The notes under the pieces: generated by a model
The model's database searches: none
Told to the model about the DNA's origin: nothing
What the model saw: only the letters and a program-made list of their open reading frames with translations
Shown: piece after piece, positions 46,604 through 54,120 of the stretch
Numbering within the stretch: position 1 is the stretch's first letter
Layout: each line of letters starts with the position of its first letter
Made by a program: the position numbers and the translations under genes
Source: Fibrobacterota bacterium
GTDB taxonomy: Bacteria > Fibrobacterota > Chitinivibrionia > Chitinivibrionales > FEN-1185
Direction of reading: 5' to 3'
NCBI GenBank assembly: GCA_003165595.1
Contig: PLWQ01000012.1
Location: 395,542-459,541, forward strand
Length of the DNA stretch: 64,000 bases

Positions 46604-47461
46604 CTATTTCCCCGCCCAATCAATTGCCAGCCCCTTGCTCCATCCCAGCACCGGATGATCGACGAACCCCGCGCTCACAGCCGCACCCCTCCAGGCGAGG
46701 ATGACTCCGAAGCTCACGATAACCGGATTGGTCGTGAACGCGGCCGAAAGTCCGAGCTTCCTCAGCAGCCAGAACTCCTCGCCGATTGACACGCGAAACC
46801 GCCACGGGCCGTCGCTCGCGGCTTCGCACAGAATTCCCTGACTGCCGAGCGCGTTGACCGTTGTGTGTACGCCGGCGCGGAGCGTGAGCGGCGTATCGTA
46901 GCCTGCGATTGCCGCGTTCTTGACCGGAATGTGACAGCACGTGAGCGACACCGCCGCGTACCGGAAGGGCACCATGGCGGATACTCCGACGTCGGCCCGG
47001 GTCTGGGCGGGATCGCTTCCCTGGTACAGCCCGGCGCGGTAGCCGCACAGTTCGACCGACGGATTGACAAAGGGTATGCACGAGGCTCCTACGGAAAGCT
47101 GCCCCTCCTGCTCAAAGTAAACGCGCAGGGCGTCGAAATGCGAGACATATGCCTTTGCAGTGAAGCCCCGCAGAGAATACATGCCGCCGACGGCGACCTG
47201 GGCAAGATGCGACGATTCCATGTTGTCCATGGGGTCAAAGTAGTCCACGCCTGCCAGCGAAATGCCGTAGCGGAACGAATCGGCGTATGCGCATGCGGGA
47301 GTAAACGCTTCGCGTCCGGAAATCCCCTGCTGCTGAAGAATTGTTCCGCTGCCGGCCATGGAATAGCCAAGCGGAAACGGCTCCCGGCTTGCGCCAGAGG
47401 CAGGCGTCCACCAGCACAGGGCCGCAGCGACAATGCCCGCAAAGGTGAACCTCATCTCCAT
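46604..47461 (-). CDS. Predicted outer-membrane beta-barrel protein, function unknown
   Basis: A 285-aa exported protein with a signal peptide (about 1-23). It has alternating hydrophobic strands with Gly/aromatic turns (LAQVAVGGMYSLRGFTAKAYVSHFD, SFGVILAWRGAAVSAGFVDHP) and ends WAGK. This resembles PorV/UPF0164-type or other barrel proteins that accompany secretion in FCB bacteria, but I cannot name the family. Its start lies inside the end of the lamin-tail gene (10-nt overlap), so the two are co-translated. Confidence 0.65.
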   Translation of the reverse strand: MEMRFTFAGIVAAALCWWTPASGASREPFPLGYSMAGSGTILQQQGISGREAFTPACAYADSFRYGISLAGVDYFDPMDNMESSHLAQVAVGGMYSLRGFTAKAYVSHFDALRVYFEQEGQLSVGASCIPFVNPSVELCGYRAGLYQGSDPAQTRADVGVSAMVPFRYAAVSLTCCHIPVKNAAIAGYDTPLTLRAGVHTTVNALGSQGILCEAASDGPWRFRVSIGEEFWLLRKLGLSAAFTTNPVIVSFGVILAWRGAAVSAGFVDHPVLGWSKGLAIDWAGK

Positions 47462-48315
47462 AGCACGCCTTTTTTGCGAAGCACTTGCCTGGTCCCGTTG
47501 CAGGTTATTTCGGCAACTACAAAAAACGGGCCTACGGGAGCGGGACTGCCGCTCGAAAGCGAGCCGTTCCAGAGATACTGAGACGAGAGCGGCTGGGGAA
47601 GATCAAGATATTTTCTCCCGTCGAACCCGTACACGCTCACAACGGCCGACGACGCCGCGGGCAAGCTGATCCGTATTGACAGATAGTCGTCCTTGCCGTC
47701 GTTGTTCGGTGTAAAAGGAATGGGGCCGATGTCGAGGTCTGCGCCGGTCGCCCGCCAGGTCGCCTCGGCATTGGGCTGACCCGGTGACGGCCTTGATGCA
47801 ACGACCCATGATTCCTTGACGAGCGCGCTTGTAGCAAGCGAGACACGCGCAAGGGACTGGTTTGTCCACGAATCGAACCAGCGATAGTCCCAGCCAACGC
47901 TCTCGCGAAGCGCGCCCGAACTGTCCCAGAAAAACAGTGTGTCGTGATAGTTGTCCATGGCTTTCCACCGTGCCGGCTGAAGAACAAGGGACACGGCCGG
48001 ATACTTGGCGGAAAAAAGCGTTCTGTCTTTGGTGAGAACGGCAATACCGCCGGCGGGCAGCACGTAGTCGGAACTCGAAATGAGGCAGGTATCGTCGGCG
48101 TGACCGTATTTCCAGTTCTTGAGATCGAGTGGCGCGCCCGAAGCATTGGTGATCTCGAACCACTCGGGACAATCCGACTGAGCGCGCGGAAAAAGTTCGG
48201 TGACGCGCAGCGCCGAATCGGATTGACCCGCAGCGGGAATTGCGAGAAAGCAAGCGAGAATGAGCGCGACCGCGGCAACGGTTTCTTTTTGTTTTTTGGC
48301 CTGTGCGCAACACAT
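47452..48315 (-). CDS. Secreted lamin-tail-domain protein with FlgD-like C terminus
   Basis: A 287-aa exported protein with a signal peptide (about 1-30). A lamin-tail (LTD) domain follows: LRVTELFPRAQSDCPEWFEITN, LDLKNWKYG, YVLPAGGIAVLTKD. The C-terminal ~90 residues, IGPIPFTPNNDGKDDYLSIRI through PVGPFFVVAEITCNG, form an FlgD-like/gliding-type beta domain. The ATG at 48315 follows an AT-rich gap; the frame runs on upstream but would overlap the divergent GerW gene. LTD proteins often bind other envelope or DNA-handling factors. Confidence 0.8.
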   Translation of the reverse strand: MCCAQAKKQKETVAAVALILACFLAIPAAGQSDSALRVTELFPRAQSDCPEWFEITNASGAPLDLKNWKYGHADDTCLISSSDYVLPAGGIAVLTKDRTLFSAKYPAVSLVLQPARWKAMDNYHDTLFFWDSSGALRESVGWDYRWFDSWTNQSLARVSLATSALVKESWVVASRPSPGQPNAEATWRATGADLDIGPIPFTPNNDGKDDYLSIRISLPAASSAVVSVYGFDGRKYLDLPQPLSSQYLWNGSLSSGSPAPVGPFFVVAEITCNGTRQVLRKKGVLWR

Positions 48316-48352: not shown

Positions 48353-48736
48353 ATGAACCTTACCGACGTCATAAAGACGGCAATGGACCAGATCCAGTAC
48401 ATTGCCAAAACGGAAACCGTGGTCGGTGAGCCGATCCGCGCCGGCAACGTCACTTTGATCCCGGTGTCGAAGATTTCCATTGGGTTCGCGGCCGGTGGCG
48501 CGGGAAACGAGAACAAGGCCGGCGCGGGTGCCGGTACCGGCGGGGGGGTCAACATCACGCCGGTGGCGTTTATCACGATTGTCGATGATAAGGTGCAGGT
48601 ACATTCTGTTTCTAAATCGGACGTTGGTCTGGGAAAAATCCTAGCCCTGGCGCCCGACCTAATCAAGAAGGTTTCGCAGTTTATGGGAAAAGACAAAGAC
48701 GACGAAAAGGACCGCGGTCACGATGAAAAGAAGTAG
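48353..48736 (+). CDS. GerW/YtfJ-family protein
   Basis: A 127-aa protein of the GerW (sporulation protein YtfJ) family: ETVVGEPIRAGNVTLIPVSKISIGFAAGG, a Gly-rich middle (AGAGAGTGGG), ITPVAFITIVDDKVQVHSV and an acidic/basic tail. In Bacillus the homologue is needed for SleB-dependent spore germination. In non-sporulating bacteria its role is unknown. No signal peptide. It overlaps the next gene by 14 nt and is divergent from the lamin-tail gene with a 37-nt gap. Confidence 0.88.
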   Translation: MNLTDVIKTAMDQIQYIAKTETVVGEPIRAGNVTLIPVSKISIGFAAGGAGNENKAGAGAGTGGGVNITPVAFITIVDDKVQVHSVSKSDVGLGKILALAPDLIKKVSQFMGKDKDDEKDRGHDEKK

Positions 48737-50240
48737 AGACGAATTTTCTTTCGACGCAGAATCATCAGGTAAATACTCCCCGAACAATCCCGATTTGTTG
48801 TGGGTGGGCCCTGAGGATGAGGCGTCCGGAAACGGGACCTTCGAAAACCCGTTTGGCCGCATCAGTGCCGCATTGGCCAAGGTGCTGCCGGGGCAAACCG
48901 TAGTACTCAAGGAAGGCACCTACCGGGGCGACGCGACGATCCAGGTTTCGGGCGCAATGGACCGCCCGATTCGGATTATTGCCGTTGCCGAATCAAAAGC
49001 CGTCATTTGCGGGGGCTGCTGGTACTTCTACGACGTGTGCGACCTTATTGTCTCGGGCCTAACATTTAAAGATTCGCCTCTCGGGGCGGTGGCGGTGATG
49101 GGCTCGTGCGAGCGAAACAGGTTCGATCACTTGCATTTTGAGAACTGCGGACATTCTCCAAAGGCATCAAGTACGCTCTTTTTCGGCGGGTCGGGCGCGG
49201 CATGCAATATCGTGGAATCATGCGAGTTTACCCACTCCTTGGTTGAAGGCAACCGCCGCAGAGACCCAGATTCAATGACCGTCGGTCTGATGATTTCCGA
49301 GGGCGATACGCACGACGGAAAACCGATCACCGATCACGTCATCCGCAGAAACAGATTTTCAAACTACGATTACGGCCTGCTTGTGGGCGCGCAGGACGCC
49401 AGCGCCAGCCAATATGGTCATAGCATTGCCTACAATTCCATCGACAATTGCCTGTTCGAGGGAATCATGGTGAAGTGCGGCGACACACAGGTAAAGGGCA
49501 ACATCGTTTCGCGATGCCCGCATCATTCGATTTCCGTGGTTACGGGCGAGGGTAGTGTTGTGCAGGAGAACAGGATAATCGACTGCGGCCTGGGAATCAG
49601 GGTTGCAGGCAAGGGCCACACGGTTTCGAACAACTGTATAATCAGGAGCGGGGCGGAATCCATACTCGTGATGGATAAAAACGGGCAGGACGGCACTGCA
49701 ACACAGAACATCATCGTGGAGAACAACACCTGCGCCGTTTGGTCAAGAAACAATACCGTTCATTCTTGTGCCGGGATAGGCATAGATCCGGAATCTTCGT
49801 TGATTTTGGAGCGCAATCTCTTTTTCGGAAGCGGCGAGCCCTACCAATTCACCAAACCCGGAAAAAGAAACTCCAGGCATCTGATCGTGGACAATGCGTG
49901 GGTTGGCAACGGCGCGTCGTGGGAAGGAGTTGTCGAGTCTCGTGTTGAATTTGCAGGAGTTGAATCCGACGACTATGCGGTTGATTCGGGATATGGCGCC
50001 AGCGGTTGGATGTGCAGACCGTTTCCGTTTGATCCCGACGCGCCGGCGCCGGAAGAAATGGCGGCACAGGAATCCATAGAAACCGATCTCAAAGATAATC
50101 TGCAAACCGCGCCGGACGACGCACTCGATGAAGAGAACATTCTTCAAAAATCGCTGTTCTTTGAGCAACAGGAAAAGGCAAGATCAACATCCCATAGGCG
50201 AGCCGACGATCACTGTGGTTGCGGCAACGCTCACGAATAG
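48723..50240 (+). CDS. Right-handed parallel beta-helix protein, no signal peptide
   Basis: A 505-aa protein with the DUF1565/pectate-lyase-like entry PDLLWVGPEDEASGNGT, NPFGRISAALAKVLPGQTVVL and KEGTYRG, then about twelve beta-helix coils (repeats such as VIRRNRFSNYDYGLLVGAQ, VQENRIIDCGLGIRV). It recalls polysaccharide lyases of the PL6 type, but no catalytic Lys/Arg pair can be assigned. There is no signal or membrane helix. The last ~75 residues are acidic and disordered, ending HCGCGNAHE. Its start lies inside the GerW gene. Confidence 0.8.
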   Translation: MKRSRDEFSFDAESSGKYSPNNPDLLWVGPEDEASGNGTFENPFGRISAALAKVLPGQTVVLKEGTYRGDATIQVSGAMDRPIRIIAVAESKAVICGGCWYFYDVCDLIVSGLTFKDSPLGAVAVMGSCERNRFDHLHFENCGHSPKASSTLFFGGSGAACNIVESCEFTHSLVEGNRRRDPDSMTVGLMISEGDTHDGKPITDHVIRRNRFSNYDYGLLVGAQDASASQYGHSIAYNSIDNCLFEGIMVKCGDTQVKGNIVSRCPHHSISVVTGEGSVVQENRIIDCGLGIRVAGKGHTVSNNCIIRSGAESILVMDKNGQDGTATQNIIVENNTCAVWSRNNTVHSCAGIGIDPESSLILERNLFFGSGEPYQFTKPGKRNSRHLIVDNAWVGNGASWEGVVESRVEFAGVESDDYAVDSGYGASGWMCRPFPFDPDAPAPEEMAAQESIETDLKDNLQTAPDDALDEENILQKSLFFEQQEKARSTSHRRADDHCGCGNAHE

Positions 50241-50656
50241 TCCGCGACCAGGAGTTTATTCGTAAATCTTCAATAAGAATATTCTTCACCTGTTTCATTT
50301 TGAAACCGTCAAGTAAAGCCTCCCGATCAAGTCAAACAAGCTATTTTCTATTTTGGTCATATTTTACATCAATTTATGATTCTATTATCAATTAATTCAA
50401 CACATTGTCACTGCCACCCCTCCTTTAGCTGCGTGCTTAACAACCTGGCGGCCGCCTAAGCAGCTTTCCTTGAATAGGTACTGAAGATTCAGTAAATTCA
50501 GCAGTCGTTTGTCGTTGTATATATTTCAATATCAACACCATACAACAACAATGATGTTGTAGCACAAATACTATTTGCTTGACGGATGAAATGTATACAT
50601 ATATATTGAAAAGTTACCTTTCTTCATTCATTCACCTCCTTCAGGAGAGGCTACCT
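50241..50656 (+). promoter_or_regulatory. AT-rich intergenic region with promoter and palindromic site
   Basis: No gene. The stretch is clearly more AT-rich than its surroundings. It holds an inverted repeat TACAACA-ACAATGA-TGTTGTA (50541-50561), a promoter (50579-50607) and a Shine-Dalgarno AGGAGAGG (50643-50650). GGCGGCCGCC near 50450 is a separate palindrome. Confidence 0.6.
50579..50607 (+). promoter_or_regulatory. sigma70-type promoter of the large hydrolase gene
   Basis: TTGACG (50579-50584) and TATATT (50602-50607) are exactly 17 nt apart, close to consensus. The start would be near 50614, giving a leader of about 43 nt that carries AGGAGAGG six bases before the TTG at 50657. Confidence 0.75.
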
Positions 50657-53600
50657 TTGAACAAGACGGCAAAACATTCGAAGAGCACGGCCCAACGCCA
50701 TTCCGCTCCAAAGCCGGCAACCCAGTCCGCCACGATTCCGAAAGAATTGAAACCATGGGCAATTTGGATCTGGAATCTCTGCATAACTTCCGATGAAATT
50801 ATCAGACAACTCGAATTCTTCATAGAAAAAGGCTTTTCGGGCGTAGCGATAAAGCCCGGACGAGACATGAACCCGGCCTTCTTGTCAGAGGAATTCTTCG
50901 ATCTTCTGGACCTTGTTCTTCAGCTTGCGCAAAAGGCAAAAATCGGGGTACGTATTGCCGAGGATTTTTCTTTGCCCTGGCATAGCACTTTTGATGGTCT
51001 TGCCAGAGTGAACCGGCTGCTGCGGGCACAATGTCTCACTCTGGAACATTCCGAGGTCATCCAGAGTAAAGCCCTGTTTGAGAAGAAAATTCCTGATCCT
51101 TCCACCGCAATCGTGCAAATCACCAAGGTTGAAAATGACAGGATCCTTGTTTCAAAAACGAAGACGATTACCCTTCCGGCAGGCAGCGATCGGCTTTCCT
51201 GGAAAGCCCCTCCCGGGATCTGGCAAGTGATGATTTTCAGGAAGAAATTCGTAGCCGATCCGCTTGGCAATTTTGCTCCGAATGCCTTTCGGGAGCAAAC
51301 AGCCCGTTCTTACACCGAGACAGTTTGGGAGGCGTTTAAGCGAAGGTTCTCCAAGTATATGCCTTCGACCTTTGAGGGTTTCGTCAGCGAAGTTCCGGCT
51401 TGCCTGCCGGCCGACAATTCCATTCCATGGGACGACGATCTCGTTGTAAAATACCGTTCGAAATACAAGAAGAATCTTTTGCCGCTCATTGCAACCTTGT
51501 TTTTTAATGCCGAAGAGAACCAGGCAAGAAACCGGCCGCATGTGTATTCATTCATGGCCCAGTCGCTTCACGAACGGTTCACCCTGGTTCTCGACAAATG
51601 GTGCAAGAAATACCGCCTGTCGCATTGGGTTCTTTGCGCCGAACGGCCGGTCCAGAAATCCGCCAACATGCTCCGCGACTGCCTCGCGATACCGAATCAG
51701 AACTTCGCGGCCGTGGGCATTCAGAACCAGGAAGGGAGCGAGGAAAATGCCGGCATCGTGCGCGCGATGGCCGACGCCAACGCCAAGGAATTCAAGCGTG
51801 AAACAATCACCGTTATCGGCAGAAACCGACAGGGCAACGCCTCGACCTTCCAGAGCCTCAAAAGCGAAATAGACCAGGCGGCGCAAGCGGGCCCATCGTG
51901 CATTGTGCTCGACGGATGCTTCTTCTCCGTCGACCACCGAAGCTGCATCAAGACGCCGAACAATCTATCGTGGTACACGCCCGGAGCGGAGCACTCACGG
52001 GCACTGTGCGATTACGCGGGGCACATCAGGAAACTGGTGACGCCCCTGCAACTGTGCCGACAGGCGGCAATTCTCCTGCCCTCGGAGTCGCTCATGGCCG
52101 ACTATCTGCCGAGCAACGATGACGCGGTGCGCAAAGGGATGCTCGCGCTTCACAAGGCCATGGACGAACTGCTGCACCTCAACCTTGATTTCGACATCAT
52201 AAGCGAAGATCAGCTGCTGTCCTGCTCGCTCTTTTCAAACGGCGAGTTCAATACGCCAAGCAAGGTGCGAAAAGGCAATTACCAGGCCCTTGTCATCCCC
52301 TATTCGCGGCTTGTCTCGAAAAACCTGTTTGTCTTTCTCGAAAAGATGGCCTCCAGGAAGTCAACCATTATCTTTATCGACGAGGCTCCGCAGGGCACCG
52401 TCGACGACGGCATAACTCCGTCGTTCACGGCGCGCGTGACCAAAATTCTTCATTCGAGGTCGGGCAAGGTGTACGTGTCGCCAGCTCGAGACCTCGAAAG
52501 CATGCTGGCGCACATCAAGCCCGCGGTATCGGTAACCGTGCAAGGCAAGAAGTGCCCCGACATCGTGGCGAATTGCGGGAGCACGCCAAGCCAGACCGTG
52601 TACTTCGTACAGAACAAATCCGATACCCAGGACTTCTTCGCCACCATGGAAGTGGAGGAAGAGAAATATTTCTACTACACGGATTGCCTGACCGGGGAAG
52701 TTCACGAAATACTCGATGTCCAGAGAAAAGACGACCAGTGCAAAATCAACCTCAACTTCTCGCCGAAGCAAACCTACGCCATTGTTGCATCGTCTCAGAA
52801 AATGCAGGTGTCGCCGCTCGCAAAAGGCAAGAAGCACAGTATCAATACCATCGGCACCGTGCAGCGGAATTACCGCATCGTTCTCAAGGATCAGTGGCAG
52901 TTTTCCGCATCCTCGCTCAACGTCATGCCGCTCGCGACGTGGAACACGCGGATCGGCCTTTCCCGGGAATCGGGCGGATACTCGCATTTCTATGAAACAT
53001 ATTTTGAGGTAAAGGAATTACCGCCCGTGTGCGTATTTTCTCTGTACGGCCTGGCCGGCGCCCGCTCGGACGCGGTAAATGGAGAAAAACTGGTGGAGGT
53101 CAACATCAACGGCACTCGCATCATCGAGTCGGGAAACATGGACGCGGCAGGCGTCCTTTCGCTGTTCCCCGCGCCGGCGCCCACGTCGATGTCGCTCACG
53201 GGGCACGTGATTGCTGCCGAACCCGACCAGCACCCGAAAAAGCCGTGCCTCGACCTCTATTGCAAGAACGTGTCCTGCTTCAATATTAAGGACCACCTGC
53301 GCAAGGGGCTCAACCGGATTTCCATACGTACCCTGGGCCTGGTTTTCGACCCGATAACCATCACCTACCCGCCGCTTATCGCCGGCATGTTCAATATCAT
53401 CAAGGGGTCCAACGGCTGGGTAATTGACACACAGGAAACCATGGTGAGCCACGATTCCTGGACCAAATACGGCTATCCCTATCTAAGCGGATGCGGCACG
53501 TACCGCCAGGTGTTCGAAATTCCCAGCGATTATAACAGGCTCGTGCTCAAGTTCTCCCAGGTGTCGGGCCCGGTTTCGGTTTCGCTCAACTCCGTTAAAC

Positions 53601-53764
53601 TGGGATCCTTTACCTGGCAGCCAATCGAGATGGACATTACCGAGGCATGCTCGTCGAAGCGCAACGAGCTGGCGGTGACCGTGGTGAACACCATCGACAA
53701 CGTCATAAAGATGAATGGACGTCCGTCCGGGATCATCGGCGAGGCCTATCTCGACGTGTATTAA
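50657..53764 (+). CDS. Very large GH106-like glycoside hydrolase, no signal peptide
   Basis: A 1035-aa protein. After a Lys/Ser/Ala tail it has PWAIWIWNLCITSDEIIRQLEFFIEKGFSGVAIKPG, the entry of GH106-type alpha-L-rhamnosidases and relatives, then a barrel region, a glutaminase-like central part (AAILLPSESLMADYLP) and C-terminal beta-sandwich modules (YGYPYLSGCGTYRQVFEIP, MNGRPSGIIGEAYLDVY). The catalytic acids are not assignable by eye. The TTG at 50657 with AGGAGAGG is preferred over the TTG at 50579, which lies in the -35 box. It has no secretion signal, odd for this class. Confidence 0.72.
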   Translation: MNKTAKHSKSTAQRHSAPKPATQSATIPKELKPWAIWIWNLCITSDEIIRQLEFFIEKGFSGVAIKPGRDMNPAFLSEEFFDLLDLVLQLAQKAKIGVRIAEDFSLPWHSTFDGLARVNRLLRAQCLTLEHSEVIQSKALFEKKIPDPSTAIVQITKVENDRILVSKTKTITLPAGSDRLSWKAPPGIWQVMIFRKKFVADPLGNFAPNAFREQTARSYTETVWEAFKRRFSKYMPSTFEGFVSEVPACLPADNSIPWDDDLVVKYRSKYKKNLLPLIATLFFNAEENQARNRPHVYSFMAQSLHERFTLVLDKWCKKYRLSHWVLCAERPVQKSANMLRDCLAIPNQNFAAVGIQNQEGSEENAGIVRAMADANAKEFKRETITVIGRNRQGNASTFQSLKSEIDQAAQAGPSCIVLDGCFFSVDHRSCIKTPNNLSWYTPGAEHSRALCDYAGHIRKLVTPLQLCRQAAILLPSESLMADYLPSNDDAVRKGMLALHKAMDELLHLNLDFDIISEDQLLSCSLFSNGEFNTPSKVRKGNYQALVIPYSRLVSKNLFVFLEKMASRKSTIIFIDEAPQGTVDDGITPSFTARVTKILHSRSGKVYVSPARDLESMLAHIKPAVSVTVQGKKCPDIVANCGSTPSQTVYFVQNKSDTQDFFATMEVEEEKYFYYTDCLTGEVHEILDVQRKDDQCKINLNFSPKQTYAIVASSQKMQVSPLAKGKKHSINTIGTVQRNYRIVLKDQWQFSASSLNVMPLATWNTRIGLSRESGGYSHFYETYFEVKELPPVCVFSLYGLAGARSDAVNGEKLVEVNINGTRIIESGNMDAAGVLSLFPAPAPTSMSLTGHVIAAEPDQHPKKPCLDLYCKNVSCFNIKDHLRKGLNRISIRTLGLVFDPITITYPPLIAGMFNIIKGSNGWVIDTQETMVSHDSWTKYGYPYLSGCGTYRQVFEIPSDYNRLVLKFSQVSGPVSVSLNSVKLGSFTWQPIEMDITEACSSKRNELAVTVVNTIDNVIKMNGRPSGIIGEAYLDVY

Positions 53765-53805
53765 TCAATCGACGATTTTGCGAGACCGCAGTGGGGGCAA
53801 CGTGC

Positions 53806-54120
53806 ATGTCGAAGCTTGTCCACAGATTTGGTGAAAAGATCTTTCTCGGCAACGCCGACGGCCTGGGCGTTGTGGTTGAAAAATTGTTTGAGAGCCCGGA
53901 AGCTCAGACTATCGTTTTCGATATGGAAAACGTAAAGCTCTGCGACTCGTACGGCCTCAAATTCCTCATCAATTATCAGCGGAAGGCGAATACCACGGGC
54001 AAGTCGTTACTGCTGTACCGCCCCGACTCATTTCTCAGGGAAATGCTCGAAAGCACCAAGCTGTCGCATTTCTTCACCATTGTCGACGCCCTCGACGCCA
54101 GCGATCTTCCAGCCAAGTAG
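53806..54120 (+). CDS. STAS-domain anti-sigma-factor antagonist-like protein
   Basis: A 104-aa STAS domain of the SpoIIAA/RsbV type: TIVFDMENVKLCDSYGLKFLINYQRKA, with the regulatory Ser in CDSYGL, then GKSLLLYRPDSFLREMLE. Such proteins bind and are phosphorylated by HATPase kinases in partner-switching. No such kinase is adjacent; the gene lies 41 nt after the hydrolase on the same strand and has GGGGG before its ATG. The frame is open upstream through the end of the hydrolase, out of frame. Confidence 0.88.
   Translation: MSKLVHRFGEKIFLGNADGLGVVVEKLFESPEAQTIVFDMENVKLCDSYGLKFLINYQRKANTTGKSLLLYRPDSFLREMLESTKLSHFFTIVDALDASDLPAK

Follow-up and report, generated by a model that had tools for sequence, protein, structure and literature searches.

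The closest described relatives of the largest protein considered here are the GH106 α-L-rhamnosidases (BT0986, 5mqm), the roles of whose catalytic residues we take from a published account (PMC6828813). Four GH106 rhamnosidases, from Thermotoga, Caldicellulosiruptor and Thermoclostridium, carry no signal peptide and have been proposed to be intracellular (PMC6828813), and the Ram106B rhamnosidases are active without either the acid residue corresponding to E461 of BT0986 or a signal peptide (PMC6828813). The PL6 lyases, including AlyGC and chondroitinase B, share a right-handed β-helix and a catalytic lysine and arginine, and about 95 % of the poly G activity of AlyGC is lost in K220A and R241A (PMC12028748). 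In the GerW (YtfJ) family, the germination phenotype was not reproduced in Bacillus subtilis and none was found in Bacillus megaterium (PMC4366231). Single-domain STAS anti-sigma antagonists of the SpoIIAA/RsbV type carry an Asp-Ser phosphorylation motif.

Relatives of all of these are encoded side by side on the forward strand of a 64 000 nt window (the whole stretch of DNA analysed) from a genome of about 5.4 Mb belonging to the class Chitinivibrionia of the Fibrobacterota. A GerW/YtfJ-family protein of 127 aa (48353..48736) is followed by a cytoplasmic PL6-fold right-handed β-helix protein of 505 aa with an acidic disordered tail (48723..50240), the sole available in-frame ATG of which, at 48723, gives a 14 nt overlap with gerW. 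A GH106-superfamily protein of 1035 aa with a TTG start (50657..53764) comes next, and 41 nt separate its stop codon from the ATG at 53806 of a single-domain STAS protein of 104 aa (53806..54120; PF01740, 2.1e-9) with an anti-sigma-antagonist DS motif. The gene order, spacings, overlaps and missing signals reported in the preliminary description are all borne out, the gene boundaries and both the 14 and 41 nt distances having been rechecked. Upstream of gerW (window positions 46604-48315) are divergent genes, one for a secreted LTD/CHU_C protein and one for another protein that bears a signal, an arrangement that recurs ahead of the GerW–β-helix genes in many genomes of the order.

The first protein belongs to the GerW/YtfJ family by its match to PF09579 (E 1.6e-19; 70.4 bits against a curated cut-off of 25) and also matches TIGR02874, although at 74 bits it scores under the equivalog cut-off of 116 and thus falls outside the sporulation-protein equivalog. 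Profile comparison found no PDB match, and nor did a fold model of low confidence (pLDDT 69.6), which says nothing about function. The gene is present in 115 of 121 genomes of the phylum, nearly always in single copy, and starts with ATG wherever inspected; Fibrobacter proper has gerW and lacks the β-helix gene. Some reduced genomes of termite-gut type (L163, L164, L165, L166) carry gerW but have lost the β-helix gene, and there gerW adjoins a gene of the starch/glycogen-synthase type. What distinguishes the present protein from the described family is its coupling to a β-helix gene and its occurrence in the Fibrobacterota, among which we know of no endospore formers. Old cultures of Chitinispirillum alkaliphilum, a relative that has been cultivated, form lipid cysts, and its description nowhere uses the word 'spore' (PMC4814513). 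GerW had been introduced in the preliminary description as a protein of spore germination; that role has been refuted in Bacillus, where the phenotype was not upheld (PMC4366231), so that nothing about function can be read from the family name. Here the gene is, moreover, nearly phylum-wide.

The partner of gerW is much more narrowly distributed. Strong matches to the β-helix protein were found in 33 of the 40 genomes of the order, and in 31 of these, covering all seven families, gerW immediately precedes the gene in the same orientation (the exceptions being G002 and G017). When the β-helix alignment was scanned against some 85,000 species with one peptide pattern, by which distant relatives may be missed, the protein was found at 22 loci, all in Fibrobacterota and restricted to the class, most of them bearing the name Chitinivibrionia/Chitinispirillaceae or listed as uncultured relatives of Fibrobacter. 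The public records show the same adjacency at 20 of the 22 loci, with spacings of −1 to +228 nt; because many are the same assemblies, this figure serves as a check on the method and not as fresh data. GerW and the PL6-fold β-helix protein thus form a conserved pair, a two-gene unit of the class Chitinivibrionia.

The β-helix protein, like GerW and the STAS protein, gives a clear Pfam match, and its assignment to the PL6 fold is clear. Its fold model (pLDDT 81, pTM 0.82) returned PL6-family proteins as all of the best 24 Foldseek matches, with E values down to 3e-12, and its profile matches AlyGC with an E value of 1.4e-17. The catalytic lysine of AlyGC, Lys220, corresponds to K251, which is lysine in 24 of 26 homologues, whereas the column equivalent to Arg241 holds arginine in none of the 26 and is mostly Ala, Thr, Ser or Gly; the Lys and Arg pair of PL6 is therefore incomplete. 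With regard to the calcium ligands of PL6 (Asn/Glu/Glu), the Asn is kept in 23 of 26, one Glu position is acidic in 19 of 26 and the other falls in an alignment gap. Because the lysine and part of the calcium site are kept, some lyase or epimerase activity may persist. The protein nevertheless differs from the PL6 lyases not only in the missing arginine and one apparently absent calcium-binding Glu but also in having no signal peptide, in its acidic disordered tail and in its coupling to gerW. That it is an active cytoplasmic lyase or epimerase of PL6 type, with GerW as accessory factor, strikes us as rather improbable: the fold, the lysine and the calcium-site Asn would suit such an enzyme, but we know of no cytoplasmic uronan in this group of Fibrobacter relatives. 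Furthermore, the arginine that is essential in AlyGC (PMC12028748) is never present in the 26 homologues.

For the 1035 aa protein, the secure evidence of GH106 homology is profile comparison and not the Pfam match, which at 21.6 bits lies below the GH106 cut-off of 29 and is accompanied by further weak matches to a jelly-roll domain and a BT4145-type model. Compared by hhalign with ten GH106 relatives from the phylum, the family aligns over 824 columns (probability 100, E 8.2e-53), and it shares with the GH106 α-L-rhamnosidases full-length profile homology, the PW.xWxWN start of the N-terminal barrel and the C-terminal jelly roll; like Ram106B of Thermotoga and Caldicellulosiruptor it is cytoplasmic. 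Its members are conserved over their full length, mostly at 40-50 % identity, and are cysteine-rich (7-29 each). The active-site columns are another matter. The general base (E593 of BT0986) is Glu in all ten relatives but Val, Ile, Leu or Met in 28 of 28 GH106-like members, in which a near-invariant GR(N) follows this hydrophobic position, and the acid column (E461, at which the structures 5mqm and 5mwk differ, E to Q) is proline in all 28. The column of the metal ligand D458 is variable and never Asp, while E245, which aligns with the second residue of a DE(P)/DS motif, is kept in 27 of 28. The preliminary description called this protein a hydrolase, a label left unsupported by the loss of the general base in every member; judged by its residues, the protein is probably a pseudoenzyme. 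Several barrel carboxylates are kept nearly invariant (D103, E245, D259, D406 and D419) and could support an altered chemistry. Other GH106-type proteins of the phylum (L172, L173, L180, L182, L183) have no signal peptide and keep the general base Glu.

An alternative, which we consider unlikely, is that the protein does work as a glycosidase inside the cell, with altered catalytic residues, acting on imported oligosaccharides in the manner of Ram106B, and that the STAS gene is a chance neighbour. The near-invariant carboxylates would fit this account, as would the activity of Ram106B without the acid residue and a signal peptide (PMC6828813). Ram106B enzymes, however, keep the general base Glu that is hydrophobic throughout the present family, and no transporter or sugar-utilization gene recurs beside the GH106-like gene. 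Its neighbours are instead regulators and others: SLOG, UPF0047, phosphoglucose isomerase and DacZ-like cyclase genes, or STAS.

The GH106-like protein occurs in 35 of the 40 genomes of the order, always as a single copy, which in some is split or partial. Distant relatives occur in two other families. A STAS gene follows it in eight genomes from five families, which upholds the GH106-like–STAS arrangement as a conserved pair; in seven (G000, the source of the window, and G001, G006, G009, G011, G012 and G015) the STAS genes are orthologous and directly adjacent, and in G005 the STAS protein is divergent. Conversely, the close STAS orthologue adjoins the GH106-like gene in seven of the eight genomes that have it (the exception being G002). 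Most genomes of the order carry the GH106-like gene with no STAS neighbour, so that adjacency is not required for its function. In other genomes a SLOG-cluster-4 gene recurs upstream, and several add UPF0047, phosphoglucose isomerase and a PTS-IIA/DacZ-like gene. At loci in several families (L110:2402-8257 and similar loci) the GH106-like gene comes after a conserved run of acyltransferase, PTS-IIA/DacZ-like cyclase, phosphoglucose isomerase, UPF0047 and SLOG-cluster-4 genes.

The STAS protein resembles SpoIIAA and RsbV in its domain and its Asp-Ser motif, which seven of eight orthologues retain (DL in G009), but differs in that no kinase, phosphatase or sigma gene adjoins it and in following the gene for a pseudo-glycosidase. 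No HATPase_c_2 or SpoIIE-type matches were found within the window; genome-wide, six and seven, respectively, exceed the cut-off, and candidate kinases thus lie elsewhere in the genome. Partner switching by the STAS protein is permitted by the conserved motif and by the presence of these kinase and phosphatase families, and a STAS-linked sensor role for the GH106-like protein is plausible. A second, different STAS paralogue lies directly upstream of gerW in G007, G011 and G015; in G041 a STAS gene is close to gerW but does not adjoin it, and it was left out of these counts.

Upstream of the GH106-like gene, the near-consensus promoter of the preliminary description is indeed found at 50579..50607 of the forward strand (sigma-70-like, TTGACG-17-TATATT, 10 of 12 consensus positions), and the sister species shares its −35 block, TTGACGGATGAAATGTAT, letter for letter. 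The accompanying palindrome also exists, as an imperfect TACAACAACA-n-TGATGTTGTA at 50541..50561 on the same strand, but as an operator it is rejected: 11 % of shuffled sequences contain one as good, and the sister species has none. The TTG at 50657 is preceded by a CAGGAG ribosome-binding site, and TTG behind a CAGGAG-like site was found in 22 of 22 GH106-like genes (the window and 21 inspected homologues, loci L093-L147), the sister species standing apart in having the same TTG two codons downstream of an ATG. This conserved weak start may limit expression of the GH106-like protein.

The absence of export signals from both large proteins holds across the order. The N-terminal hydropathy of 28 GH106-like and 26 β-helix homologues was compared with that of positive controls, namely secreted proteins encoded nearby and GH106 relatives that are secreted, and none of the homologues showed a Sec signal peptide, a Tat motif or a transmembrane stretch; all stay under the secreted controls, the highest value belonging to a β-helix homologue whose reading frame had been extended upstream by the gene caller. 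A longer, signal-bearing N terminus for the GH106-like protein was considered and rejected, since reading further upstream in this frame leads into the promoter and through residues without counterparts in the homologues, which themselves begin at the conserved TTG. It is highly improbable, in our view, that the two proteins leave the cell by an unrecognized route and act at the surface. Their folds are of glycan-active type and the divergent neighbouring genes encode the secreted LTD/CHU_C protein and the second signal-bearing protein, but every homologue lacks a signal, unlike the secreted relatives found in this phylum, and 12-20 cysteines in each β-helix homologue, like the 7-29 of the GH106-like proteins, suit a reducing compartment. 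An intracellular location is not new in itself, given the GH106 rhamnosidases already proposed to be intracellular (PMC6828813).

The preliminary description went on to join all four genes into one cytoplasmic system under partner switching, and here the comparison gives a different answer. The GerW–β-helix and GH106-like–STAS units touch only in G000 and G001, two genomes of one genus; elsewhere they are on different contigs or, in G032, about 30 kb apart. Each unit is also lost without the other: G019, G020, G026 and G029 have the β-helix gene and no GH106-like match, and at least four genomes (G023, G024, G033 and G038) have the GH106-like gene and no real β-helix gene. Single absences are weak because the genomes compared are drafts, but several of them are at least 95 % complete. 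The adjacency in both genomes of the genus, the STAS genes adjoining each unit in some genomes and the encoded HATPase_c_2 and SpoIIE-type proteins could all be accommodated by a single system, but no other family has the units together, the losses run in both directions and the STAS genes of the two units are different paralogues. We therefore regard the single system as unsupported and very unlikely; the locus consists of two independently inherited units that happen to adjoin in this genus.

Our working hypothesis, held tentatively and at a little short of an even chance, is of two independent units of non-degradative cytoplasmic proteins with glycan-active folds. The GH106-like protein would bind, without cleaving, a cytoplasmic sugar, glycan or nucleotide sugar by means of the acids kept in its barrel and of its C-terminal jelly roll, and its ligand state would be relayed through the neighbouring STAS protein. 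The β-helix protein would provide a scaffold or binding surface on which GerW assembles or which it regulates, and both large proteins would be housekeeping-type cytoplasmic factors and not degradative enzymes. We favour this hypothesis because the pairs are conserved and independent, export signals are lacking, the GH106 base and the PL6 arginine are lost, and the GH106-like protein keeps its full length, its TTG and its ribosome-binding site; the switch is included because of the DS motif in the STAS orthologues and because three genomes carry another STAS gene immediately ahead of gerW. What was observed is anatomy, distribution and the loss of residues, and from them we infer binding and relay as, in our judgement, the likeliest mechanism.

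Both pairs are truly conserved and merit further study, and the story that linked them is to be replaced by one of two separate units. A more far-reaching version, which for now we would call a long shot, is that a cytoplasmic pseudo-glycosidase detects a glycan or nucleotide sugar inside the cell and signals this by way of STAS, that the PL6-fold/GerW module follows the same logic, and that dead carbohydrate enzymes serve as signalling parts throughout the class. GerW/YtfJ is widely distributed and has no settled function, and a partner gene that is near-invariant across an order offers a concrete handle on it. Among pseudoenzymes inside bacteria, a GH106 relative that is present order-wide in one copy and lacks the general base would be unusual in its size and degree of conservation, and an automatic annotation as 'alpha-L-rhamnosidase' would mislead.
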